IMG/VR virus record: IMGVR_UViG_3300032284_001479
Span: 1-22,065 of that record
Source: a virus
Strand: one strand, 5' to 3'
DNA: 22,065 nt
The translations under genes were made by a program, and so were the position numbers. Positions 3,943-21,304 of this stretch are shown piece after piece. The notes beneath the pieces were generated by a model. It had not been told where the DNA came from, did no database searches, and saw nothing but the letters and a program-made list of their open reading frames with translations. Position 1 is the stretch's first letter, and every line of letters begins with the position of its first letter.

Positions 3943-4322
3943 TAAAAGTAAAACAAGTAATTTTAACACCTACGCAAATTGAAGCGTTATATGCAACCCC
4001 ATTAATCGTATTGCCTGCGCCACCAACGGGATATGTTAATAATATTCTAAGTGTAACAGAAAGGTTGGATTTTAAAACAACTCCTTATACGGGGGTGATA
4101 AAAACTATGTATCAAAGCATTAATTCAGACGGGAATATTATATTTGAAAGTGAGGTTATTGCCAATCATACAAGTATACTTTTGCCGACAGTTAAAAAAA
4201 TAACAAACCAAACAATACTTGCTACTACAGACCCTATTTATCTTACAACCGATGCAACAGCAACAGATGGAGATAGTCAATTTACGATTACAATAGTTTA
4301 TGACCAAGTAGCAATATCATAA
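3939..4322 (+). CDS. Small phage structural protein (decoration/tail accessory type)
   Basis: 127 residues, predicted to be mostly beta strand. It opens with IKVKQVILTPTQIEALYATPLIVLPAPP followed by G-Y-V, which resembles a widespread class of small phage virion proteins that begin '..tLt.aqi.aL..tP..lv.aPg.Gk.i'. It then has Thr- and Ile-rich strands up to FTITIVYDQVAIS. This similarity is recalled from pattern and was not searched. It lies between the neck genes and the baseplate gpJ-like gene. It starts on an ATGA overlap with the in-frame remnant upstream and ends on a TAATG overlap with gpJ. The likely role is a surface or tail accessory protein. Confidence in the gene is high, in the role low. 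Confidence 0.8.
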   Translation: MIKVKQVILTPTQIEALYATPLIVLPAPPTGYVNNILSVTERLDFKTTPYTGVIKTMYQSINSDGNIIFESEVIANHTSILLPTVKKITNQTILATTDPIYLTTDATATDGDSQFTITIVYDQVAIS

Positions 4323-5173
4323 TGGGATATACACCTCGCACCATACAGCAGATAGTTAATCAAATTACCGCATCCAAAAATGCGGATAGTAATTTGAACG
4401 GACTAACAAGCACCTCGCAGGTTGCTTATTGGAAACTATGGATATATATTCAGGCAGTAGCTACAAATCTATTGGAGCAGATAATGAGTATATTCTTAGA
4501 TGAAATACAAACAATAGAAAGTCAAAGCCATGCGGGTACGATTGGATGGGTGCAGAATGAAGTCCTTAAATTTCAATATCCTGACGTAGTACAAATCAAT
4601 CCTGATTTCACGTTTCAATACGCAACTATTAATCCATCATTACAGATAATTACTAATTGTGCGGTAACAGTAGGAAATACAGGAGCATTAACAGTAAAAG
4701 TAACAACAGGAGTTCCGGCAGGTGCAATATCAAGCGATGAACAAATAGCATTAACAAGTTACTTAGATGCAATACTTTCACCTAACCAATTTTACACAAT
4801 AGTAAGTCAGGATGGCGATGCTTTATATATCACAGGTACAGTATTTTATAACGGGCAATATCAGGCAGCTATTCAGACAAACGTAGAAGCGGCTTTAACA
4901 GCATATATCAATAAATTTGCAACATCATCAGCAAGCGGAGGTGGTTTTAATGGAGTGGTAAAACTATCGGATATTGAGAATGTAATATTATCGGTTGCGG
5001 GTGTAGTTGATTGGCAACCTTCAATGGTTGCGGTTACTCCTTTTGGTGGGTCAATGGTTTATCTAATGAAAGTAAGCACAATTATATCACGTAACTTTCA
5101 GACAGTGGCAGGATATGTTAAGGAAGCAGGTCCTTTTAGTTCAACAATTTCTTATCAGATAGCGGCAAATTAA
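4322..5173 (+). CDS. Baseplate J-like protein (Mu gp47 / P2 gpJ type)
   Basis: 283 residues. The C-terminal part has the baseplate J pattern near residues 190-233: AALTAYINKF, then a Gly-rich turn and VVKLSDIENVILSVAGVVDW, equivalent to the family's 'l..yi......G..v..s.i...i..v.GV.d'. The N-terminal region is helical and probably joins the hub, and the middle is beta-rich. In contractile tails gpJ proteins form the baseplate wedge with gpW (gp25-like) and gpI. Here the gp25-like partner is encoded 13 kb away at 17856, so the wedge genes are split. The gene overlaps its neighbours by one base on each side (TAATG). Confidence 0.82.
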   Translation: MGYTPRTIQQIVNQITASKNADSNLNGLTSTSQVAYWKLWIYIQAVATNLLEQIMSIFLDEIQTIESQSHAGTIGWVQNEVLKFQYPDVVQINPDFTFQYATINPSLQIITNCAVTVGNTGALTVKVTTGVPAGAISSDEQIALTSYLDAILSPNQFYTIVSQDGDALYITGTVFYNGQYQAAIQTNVEAALTAYINKFATSSASGGGFNGVVKLSDIENVILSVAGVVDWQPSMVAVTPFGGSMVYLMKVSTIISRNFQTVAGYVKEAGPFSSTISYQIAAN

Positions 5174-17859: not shown

Positions 17860-18167
17860 CATTTCAGGATTTTCAACTATCGGATTCAGGCGATTTACAA
17901 ATTACTAATGGTGATTTTATAGTAGCACCATCAGACTACGCACATATTCAGGATATAATAACATCATTTCAGGGCGAATGGAAACAATATCCATTAGTAG
18001 GTTGCGGAATAATTAAATATCTAAAATCACAAAGCGGAGCGGAGGCAATCAATATCTGTAAAACACAATTACAGGCGGATGGATATTCGGTTGCTAATGT
18101 CAGTGCAAATATTGATGAAGGTGGCAATTTAAAGATAGCATTTCCTAACGGGATAAGCAGACCATGA
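17856..18167 (+). CDS. gp25-like baseplate wedge protein (Mu gp46 / P2 gpW)
   Basis: 103 residues. It is the gp25/gpW lysozyme-like wedge protein that initiates sheath assembly: the opening DFQLSDSGDLQITNGDFIVA, the central helices (QDIITSFQGEWKQYPLVGCGI) and the closing strand (LKIAFPNG). The order spike then gp25-like matches contractile tails. Its wedge partners gpJ and gpI are in the window's first half (4322-5976), so the wedge is split between two operons. ATGA overlaps flank both ends. Confidence 0.82.
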   Translation: MTFQDFQLSDSGDLQITNGDFIVAPSDYAHIQDIITSFQGEWKQYPLVGCGIIKYLKSQSGAEAINICKTQLQADGYSVANVSANIDEGGNLKIAFPNGISRP

Positions 18168-19381: not shown

Positions 19382-19801
19382 ATGAAAATAAAAATTGAAA
19401 GAGAGTACAAGGATAACGAAACCCTTGGAACAGCACAAGTAATAGATGACAATGGTAACAGCATCTTTGACTTTAAAACGATTGAGTTACCTTATTTGGA
19501 TAATGCACCGACAACTTCATGTATTCCAGTAGGTACTTATCCAGTGATTAAATCGGTAGGTTGGGGTAACATTCCTTATGAACATTTTGCAGTTGAAAAT
19601 GTGCCACATCGTGCAGGAATTTGCATACACATTGGGAACTATGCTGAAGGCAAAAGAGTAGATTCGGAGGGGTGTATATTAGTTGGTAATGCTTTTGCTG
19701 ATATTAACGGGGATGGACATTTAGATGTGGTGGCAAGCGGAATAACATTAGGTAAATTGTTATCTATATTGCCTGGCAAATTCGAGTTGGAGATTATTTA
19801 A
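19382..19801 (+). CDS. DUF5675 protein, candidate endolysin
   Basis: 139 residues of the DUF5675 family, often present in the lysis position of Bacteroidetes phages. The characteristic region is C81-I-H83-I-G-N followed by S-E-G-C98-I-L-V-G. The 'HxGN...GC' arrangement recalls the His/Cys dyad of YkuD-like L,D-transpeptidase folds, so a peptidoglycan-acting enzyme is possible but not proven. It has no signal peptide and so would need a holin to reach the wall. It lies among the membrane proteins and directly before the structured RNA element at 19806. Confidence 0.75.
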   Translation: MKIKIEREYKDNETLGTAQVIDDNGNSIFDFKTIELPYLDNAPTTSCIPVGTYPVIKSVGWGNIPYEHFAVENVPHRAGICIHIGNYAEGKRVDSEGCILVGNAFADINGDGHLDVVASGITLGKLLSILPGKFELEII

Positions 19802-19805
19802 AAAA

Positions 19806-19894
19806 CTCGGGTTAAGGCACCGAGGTACTTAGGACTGAATGAATCAGGACAGCCGAACGTTAGGCATTCGGGGTACAAAGATAATAATTATTAT
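19806..19894 (+). ncRNA. Structured RNA element between endolysin and holin genes
   Basis: A GC-rich island in AT-rich DNA. Hairpin A has stem 19806-19810/19820-19824 (CTCGG/CCGAG) and loop GTTAAGGCA. Hairpin B has stem 19835-19838/19844-19847 (CTGA/TCAG). Hairpin C has stem 19853-19857/19867-19871 (CCGAA/TTCGG) and loop CGTTAGGCA. GTAC follows A directly (19825-19828) and follows C after one G (19873-19876); the two copies can pair, enclosing B and C. A 14-base palindrome (19881-19894) follows. A and C share loops but differ in four of five stem pairs, all compensated. There is no T-run for an intrinsic terminator and no clear promoter, so it is probably part of the polycistronic mRNA. The frame of the upstream gene is also open through it. 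Confidence 0.6.
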
Positions 19895-19924
19895 TTTACA
19901 ATTAACAAATTAAAATTTAAGACA

Positions 19925-20200
19925 ATGCAAAATTACTTAGTCAAATTGCTGAAATGGATTCTTTCCATTGCTTCAGAGCAGGACGGCTCCGGTAGTTCAA
20001 AGCGTGTTATTGCTTTTATTGCAATGGCTTTGATATGCGGAATTAACTACCTTGCGATTAAAATAGATAAACCTGAAGTATTTACATTCGTGCAGTTTTG
20101 TGATGGGACCTTCTGTTTATTTATCCTTGTATTGCTTGGGCTTGCAACATGGAATAATATCTCTAATAATAACACAAACAATGAAAACAAACAGTTATAA
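19925..20200 (+). CDS. Holin-like protein with two membrane segments
   Basis: 91 residues with two hydrophobic segments, about 28-46 (VIAFIAMALICGINYLAIK) and 53-76 (FTFVQFCDGTFCLFILVLLGL), and a hydrophilic Asn-rich tail. The G-S-S-K-R-V before the first segment resembles small holins of Bacteroidetes phages. It is the best holin candidate in this cluster, placed after the DUF5675 gene and separated from it by the structured RNA. The ATG at 19925 follows an A-rich leader (aatttaagaca). Its last 20 bases overlap the next gene. Confidence 0.75.
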   Translation: MQNYLVKLLKWILSIASEQDGSGSSKRVIAFIAMALICGINYLAIKIDKPEVFTFVQFCDGTFCLFILVLLGLATWNNISNNNTNNENKQL

Positions 20201-20846
20201 TTTAATAATTGGAATTTCAGCAGTCGCATTAATCGCATTGCTTTTTTGTTGGAACGGTTGTAATCAAAGAAGATTAGGGCGCAACGAGGTTAAACAATCT
20301 ATTGTTGATTTGCATACTGAAAAGGAAATGAAGTTGTGGAGCGATAGTGTGAGTAATTTAGTAGTTGAAAACTATCAACTAAAAACTGAAAACAAAATGG
20401 TGAATTTACGGAATGAATCATTATTAAAATCATTATCTGCATACCAACAGCATCAAAGTATTATCCGGAATACAAACGTTGCTCAAATCAAACAGGAGAG
20501 CGATAAGATAAAGGACAGCACCATTAATGTAATTCAGATAAAAGATAAAAACGGACTGCTGATTGATTATGTAAATTATAATAACATTTCGAATAGTTAC
20601 GATAGTTGCCAAATTGAAAATAAAATACTTAATTCAACTATTTATTCGGATTCGTTACTTATTATTTCAGATGCAAAGCTAATACAGGCAACGGATTCAT
20701 TAAGCAGGTGGAAAGATGTAAAATGTATTGATGATGTGAAAAGCGAAATTAAAAAAGTCCGTAAAAGGACATTGTGGATTTGTGTACTTGCCGGAACCAA
20801 TGCAATAAAAGATTTTTTATTTATTGATTACCTTATAAAAAAATAA
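20181..20846 (+). CDS. Membrane-anchored coiled-coil protein, spanin-like
   Basis: 221 residues from the ATG at 20181. An upstream in-frame ATG at 20100 lies inside the holin-like gene and gives an implausible N-terminus. The protein has an N-terminal hydrophobic anchor (about 8-24) followed by W-N-G-C, which could be a weak lipobox. A long helical/coiled-coil region follows (LWSDSVSNLVVENYQLKTE), then IQIKDKNGLLIDYVNYN, and a second hydrophobic stretch at the very end (TLWICVLAGTNAIKDFLF). N-anchor plus periplasmic coil suits an i-spanin that connects to the outer membrane. The second hydrophobic end is unusual. The promoter of the next gene overlaps its 3' end. Confidence 0.7.
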   Translation: MKTNSYNLIIGISAVALIALLFCWNGCNQRRLGRNEVKQSIVDLHTEKEMKLWSDSVSNLVVENYQLKTENKMVNLRNESLLKSLSAYQQHQSIIRNTNVAQIKQESDKIKDSTINVIQIKDKNGLLIDYVNYNNISNSYDSCQIENKILNSTIYSDSLLIISDAKLIQATDSLSRWKDVKCIDDVKSEIKKVRKRTLWICVLAGTNAIKDFLFIDYLIKK

Positions 20847-20855
20847 CTATCTTTG
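20824..20855 (+). promoter_or_regulatory. Bacteroidetes-type promoter of the 20887 gene
   Basis: TTG at 20824-20826, 21 bases, then TATCTTTG at 20848-20855 (next base C) match the -33 TTG / -7 TAnnTTTG(c) pattern of Bacteroidetes promoters. The start of transcription would be near 20862, giving a leader of about 25 bases. The -33 part lies inside the end of the spanin-like gene. Confidence 0.62.
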
Positions 20856-20886
20856 CAACTCAAATAATAACTTAAATTATTATACC

Positions 20887-21096
20887 ATGTTTAAAAAGAA
20901 ATTTTATTGCTCATCTGAAACAACAACAGATAAAGGGCAAACAGTAACACTTACAGAGGTTGATTCTAATGATTCATTCTCAATGCCTGAATTAACGATA
21001 GATGTAGCAAAAGGTACATTTAAAGAGGGCGAGTATTATGTTGTAAGTATTGAGGATGGTGGACCACCATCAGCAGATACGGCATCAAGTAATTAA
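20887..21096 (+). CDS. Small hypothetical protein in its own transcription unit (moron candidate)
   Basis: 69 residues, no family recognised. A basic N-terminus (MFKKKFYCSSE) precedes mainly beta-like sequence (TDKGQTVTLTEVDSN, KEGEYYVVSIEDGG) and a Pro/Ser tail. There is no signal peptide. The gene has its own promoter (20824-20855) and is closed by two hairpins, one of them a strong terminator (21151-21181). A lone gene with promoter and terminator at the end of a late operon is the classic layout of a moron, a host-expressed gene in a prophage. That label is inferred from layout. Confidence 0.68.
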   Translation: MFKKKFYCSSETTTDKGQTVTLTEVDSNDSFSMPELTIDVAKGTFKEGEYYVVSIEDGGPPSADTASSN

Positions 21097-21103
21097 CGGA
21101 AAG

Positions 21104-21128
21104 AGCGCGGACGTTGTAAACCCGCGCT
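21104..21128 (+). other. GC-rich hairpin after the 20887 gene
   Basis: AGCGCGG (21104-21110) pairs with CCGCGCT (21122-21128) around an 11-base loop. Only a short T-rich stretch follows (tt, then gttcg), so it is at most a weak terminator. It may protect the 3' end or work with the next hairpin. Confidence 0.6.
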
Positions 21129-21150
21129 TTGTTCGTTCGTAATGGGAGAG

Positions 21151-21181
21151 GGAGTGATATTAATTTATCACTCCTTTTTTT
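21151..21181 (+). terminator. Intrinsic terminator
   Basis: GGAGTGATA (21151-21159) and TATCACTCC (21166-21174) form a perfect 9-bp stem with a 6-base loop, followed by seven T's (21175-21181). It ends transcription from the 20887 unit and from the whole structural/lysis operon. Confidence 0.9.
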
Positions 21182-21250
21182 ATGCTTATTTTTGAGTGTT
21201 AGTAACTTGTTAATAACTTTTCTTGAAATAAATTACAAACGTATTAATTT

Positions 21251-21266
21251 TTTACGTATTTTTGTA
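21251..21266 (+). promoter_or_regulatory. Promoter element of second rightward operon, matching the head promoter
   Basis: This block has TATTTTTG (21257-21264) as -7 box, 40 bases before the ATG at 21305. The 16 bases differ at one position from 7421-7436 in front of the protease gene. ACGTATT occurs twice (21239-21245 and 21254-21260), a possible activator site. No good -33 TTG at normal spacing is seen. Confidence 0.55.
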
Positions 21267-21304
21267 CCCGATAAGAAACATAAACAATTTAAAACTATAA
21301 ACAA

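Follow-up and report, generated by a model that had tools for sequence, protein, structure and literature searches.

A candidate antisense RNA gene between the endolysin-position and holin-like genes of a Mu-like Bacteroidetes phage

Why should a 123-base spacer carrying two hairpins with almost the same loop separate the endolysin-position and holin-like genes of a phage? The locus lies in a 22,065-base IMG/VR virus record (here called the window) from a Mu-like contractile phage of Bacteroidetes that encodes a Mu-type portal, a Clp-type protease and a tail sheath. The nearest relatives of its hub protein are found in phages of Flavobacterium and Winogradskyella, several of which are classed as Winoviridae. 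A baseplate-type gene (window 4322-5173) sits upstream of the protease gene, whereas relatives, L002 and L004 among them, have its homologue downstream of the hub gene, which is a gene-order rearrangement. The gene on the left of the spacer encodes a DUF5675 protein that is considered an endolysin by position only. An initial annotation placed a candidate structured RNA between a candidate endolysin and holin, and the presence there of a structured element that does not look like coding sequence is supported. It also assigned the structure to the mRNA, having taken the plus strand alone; the minus strand has a promoter-like box and a terminator-like hairpin that bound both hairpins (Table 1). 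The best explanation of the spacer, which we hold tentatively and at slightly less than an even chance, is that insertion of a small antisense RNA gene separated the two protein genes. The element may regulate lysis.

Table 1. Features of the spacer and its flanking genes, in window coordinates.
Feature	Position	Strand	Remarks
DUF5675 gene, endolysin position	19382..19801	+	Pfam PF18925 E=1.7e-19; phrog_1501
T6 tract 3' of hairpin A on the minus strand	19800..19805	-	Direct reading
Predicted ~72-nt antisense RNA, inferred ends	19800..19871	-	Promoter-like box plus terminator-like hairpin
Spacer holding the element, 123 bases	19802..19924		Absent at corresponding junctions of L056 and L082
Hairpin A	19806..19824		Stem CTCGG/CCGAG, 19806-10/19820-24; minus-strand reading is the terminator stem
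First GTAC	19825..19828		Able to pair with 19873-19876 in a sense transcript
Hairpin B	19835..19847		CTGA/TCAG
Hairpin C	19853..19871		Stem CCGAA/TTCGG, 19853-57/19867-71; 5' end of predicted antisense RNA
Second GTAC	19873..19876		Upstream of predicted antisense start; one-base overlap with -7 box
Promoter-like -7 box TATCTTTG	19876..19883	-	Perfect match to TAnnTTTG, Bacteroidetes sigma-A (PMC7366714, PMC9723704)
14-base A+T palindrome ATAATAATTATTAT	19881..19894		Inside predicted promoter region of antisense reading
Candidate -33 element TTTG	19906..19909	-	Spacing 22, longer than ideal; direct reading
Holin-like gene	19925..20200	+	phrog_6384 holin, weak, E=0.004; related frames L056 21011-21292, L082 11378-11650

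The twin hairpins themselves are as first described: every pair is present, and the loops of hairpins A and C (GTTAAGGCA and CGTTAGGCA) are near-identical. This arrangement is rare by chance. Of 5000 dinucleotide shuffles of the 140-nt region, just one gave two 5-bp hairpins with similar loops within 120 nt, and 100 shuffled windows gave no such pair. The sole other such twin in the window is weaker, has similar A-rich loops at 17977 and 18056, and lies inside coding sequence. The GTAC that follows each hairpin and the 14-base palindrome, composed of A+T only, were likewise found where reported. Two further claims stand in part. The stretch had been called clearly GC-richer than its surroundings; its G+C content is 40% (19800-19899), but the rise is modest, with neighbouring 100-base windows at 28% to 43%. 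The changes between the two stems had been called compensated, and pairing is indeed kept, but the two hairpins compared belong to one molecule and are not homologues, so the term does not amount to evidence of covariation.

Evidence in support of an antisense gene came from the minus strand. In F. psychrophilum the -7 box sits at -12 to -5 (PMC9723704), so that transcription is predicted to start on the outer base of hairpin C, at 19871. On this strand hairpin A, a 5-bp stem with four G-C pairs and a 9-nt loop followed by T6, resembles an intrinsic terminator; upstream on this strand there is no gene needing a terminator. The combination of a promoter with an intrinsic terminator marks high-confidence intergenic small RNAs in B. 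thetaiotaomicron (PMC7366714). The window has a single TAnnTTTG box with a GC hairpin and T-run 40-120 nt further on; 3000 shuffles of the region gave 0 such units and shuffled windows averaged 0.05 each, although these rates flatter the site because the rule was fixed after the site had been seen. Between the genes of these phages, TAnnTTTG shows no clear enrichment (1.4-fold, versus 1.35-1.6 for control words).

Boxes of this type were also seen at other places. Within the window, TATCTTTG recurs on the plus strand at 20848-20855, with TTG 21 bases upstream, just ahead of a small gene (20887-21096), and is likely a promoter. Past this gene, strong hairpins at 21104-21183, one with a T-run, are among the best-folding segments of the window and likely mark an operon end. 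In three relatives (L004:140-215, L073:1393-1473 and L077:6594-6667, all on the minus strand), a TTATATTTG box is kept between convergent genes while the bases that follow vary, and a GCCTTC..GAAGGC hairpin with T6 lies ~70 nt past the box. These units are possibly a conserved small RNA gene, or merely the terminator of the preceding gene. Units of ~75 nt running from TAnnTTTG to a terminator also lie between genes in other relatives (L075:2364-2446 (+), L085:3381-3461 (+) and L027:20230-20305 (-)).

In the proposed mechanism, minus-strand transcription would start at about 19871 and produce an RNA of ~72 nt, with hairpin C at its 5' end, a linker, and hairpin A as the 3' terminator. If the late operon reads through the spacer, this RNA would be the exact complement of late lysis mRNA from the intercistronic region. 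Sense/antisense pairing would begin between exposed loops and spread to a duplex, and the near-identity of the loops would allow every antisense-sense combination of them. The duplex would then be cleaved, or holin output lowered. The convergent minus-strand promoter may also interfere with late transcription, and the net effect proposed is that lysis would be restrained. The YUNR U-turn motif, which starts or speeds antisense pairing in known systems (PMC8464778), is present in all four loops, sense and antisense; as chance alone often produces the motif and one loop duplicates the other, it lends weak support to loop pairing. A scan for other targets at gene starts performed no better with the predicted RNA than with a shuffled RNA.

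Small RNAs of this sort at such places are a known kind, exemplified by sar, OOP, P22E and PAK_P4as15; they are ordinary phage regulators, and the present one is predicted in one phage only. The two-hairpin layout also has a plasmid parallel. FinP of plasmid F is a ~78-nt antisense RNA to an mRNA leader that has two stem-loops, the second being the terminator, and acts by loop pairing. It controls plasmid transfer and, unlike the twin loops here, its two loops are not known to be duplicates. Among phages, sar of P22 comes from the arc-ant intercistronic region and has two stem-loops. This 68/69-nt antisense RNA pairs with phage mRNA (PMC12197685) and resembles the predicted RNA in being a short phage antisense RNA, with no sequence relation shown. 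Sar keeps ant translation from starting. The predicted RNA stops 54 bases before the holin start codon, so direct occlusion of the sar type is not expected. Lambda OOP is a 77-nt cis-antisense RNA that influences the choice between lysis and lysogeny (PMC12197685); it targets the early gene cII, whereas the target here would be a late lysis mRNA. A parallel in location is the P22E small RNA, 48 bp ahead of holin gene 13 in P22 (PMC13397905). PAK_P4as15, an antisense RNA associated with an endolysin gene, is carried by one phage and missing from a relative, and has been proposed to delay lysis (PMC12197685). It differs in being ~550 nt long and tied to the endolysin gene itself rather than to an intercistronic RNA of ~72 nt.

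Comparison with relatives suggests that the spacer is a feature of one lineage rather than part of a conserved cassette. Related viral loci were collected by tail-sheath alignment (80) and LysM alignment (4). In L056, the DUF5675 gene (20592-21014) and the holin relative (21011-21292) overlap by 4 nt, leaving no spacer. In L082, a Peptidase_M15 endolysin overlaps the holin relative directly after it, again without a spacer, an arrangement that also speaks for calling the window's two genes a holin and an endolysin-position gene. The next short frame follows DUF5675 immediately in L018 and L110, and in the order to which L095 (a Chitinophagaceae MAG) belongs, genomes often have a DUF5675 gene that overlaps the next frame or lies within a few bases of it. 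Judged by the two directly comparable junctions (L056 and L082), and given that no homologue was found, the spacer would most simply be an insertion peculiar to its own lineage; absence from those junctions is also what is expected of a self-contained insertion.

The searches gave no convincing homologue of the element. Single-protein scans of viral contigs and of genomes with DUF5675 and the holin found no homologues, loop-pattern searches, of IMG/VR among others, found no homologue of the element and gave either nothing or matches that lacked the stems, and no second copy turned up when 94 sequences were scanned for hairpin and loop together. Among the matches listed in a blastn search of the element against phages and plasmids, only the A+T flank was aligned. 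Covariance model R1, built from a single sequence, matched the window alone in 82 sources (1.16 Mb) and gave 4 and 7 hits over 299 and 396 Bacteroidota genomes, at chance level (per-genome E 0.004-0.05), with the sole loop-like word at these loci far from the hit. Membership of a known Rfam family was rejected, in agreement with the initial annotation, as nothing in the window matched at the gathering score and the best permissive match had E=2.7. The predicted antisense RNA would be a new member of the sar/OOP kind, without an Rfam sequence match.

Several observations speak against an antisense gene, and some of them favour its main rival, a structured element of the sense strand. Folding is stronger on the sense strand (z -3.2 to -3.7, rank 10 of 1694 segments) than on the minus strand (z -2.5 to -2.9, rank 33). 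In the minus-strand RNA, hairpin C grows to seven pairs, with a G-U. An RNA beginning at 19871 would make no use of the GTAC copies or the GUAC helix. The predicted start is a C, while purines are preferred; the -33 element is poorly spaced; and no homologue showing conservation was found. On the sense strand, a polycistronic lysis mRNA would carry hairpin A followed by a GUAC-closed junction with B and C, which may bind a protein or shape the processing or translation of the holin mRNA. The location in the leader of the holin frame is consistent with this idea, as is the plus-strand ensemble, in which hairpins A and B and the GUAC helix each have a probability of at least 0.90; the helix, at 0.99, is explained on the sense strand only. 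However, hairpin C is about half populated in the same ensemble (~0.45), and the minus-strand box and T-run are left unexplained. The missing spacer in L056 and L082, together with the lack of any homologue found, also argues against a sense element, and a conserved, cassette-wide version of the initially proposed cis-acting mRNA element is not supported. A sense-strand element is therefore possible but unlikely. A plus-strand terminator was rejected, since no GC stem followed by a T-run is present.

A second alternative is that the spacer is a remnant or filler, in which a duplicated, hairpin-bearing DNA insertion has no present function and the box and T-run are coincidences of A+T-rich DNA. 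The element occurs once, and TAnnTTTG is frequent between genes (~1 per kb per strand), both of which suit this explanation. It is nevertheless rather improbable, as the twin hairpins and the box-plus-terminator are jointly rare in shuffles and the stems have changed yet still pair.

The element could also act as DNA, with single-stranded hairpins or sites for proteins serving recombination or regulation. Conserved loops on changed-but-paired stems fit any hairpin, whether DNA or RNA, and the loops match the integron box GTTRRRY. There is, however, no complementary GCCTAAC partner nearby, both copies of the box have the same orientation inside loops, and a constant loop between varying arms does not resemble an operator, which makes a DNA-level role highly unlikely. 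An integron attC site in particular was rejected, because complementary R boxes do not flank a hairpin and direct reading finds no GCCTAAC in the plus-strand stretch. Least credible is coding, by readthrough of the DUF5675 stop codon into the holin or by an unseen small protein: the holin frame is open from 19802, right after the DUF5675 stop and in the same frame (~3% expected by composition), but the hairpin part has a codon score of -0.24, lower than the 5th percentile for genes of this phage, on which coding was rejected, and there is no in-frame start codon, no match to the translation in phages, and a DUF5675 end at the usual place.

For the antisense gene, the analysis also yields a more specific proposal, to which we assign only a small chance: a two-stem-loop antisense RNA with duplicated recognition loops, carried on an acquired cassette of ~120 bp between the endolysin-position and holin genes, would time lysis through pairing between loops, in a phage of Bacteroidetes, a phylum with no Shine-Dalgarno sites in its mRNAs. 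More generally, where a structured RNA is called from one strand, the opposite strand is worth checking for a promoter and terminator. If the antisense reading is true, this would be an antisense RNA at the holin gene of a Bacteroidetes phage, a case not met with in a limited literature search, and would give a small, testable point of access to lysis timing in such a phage.
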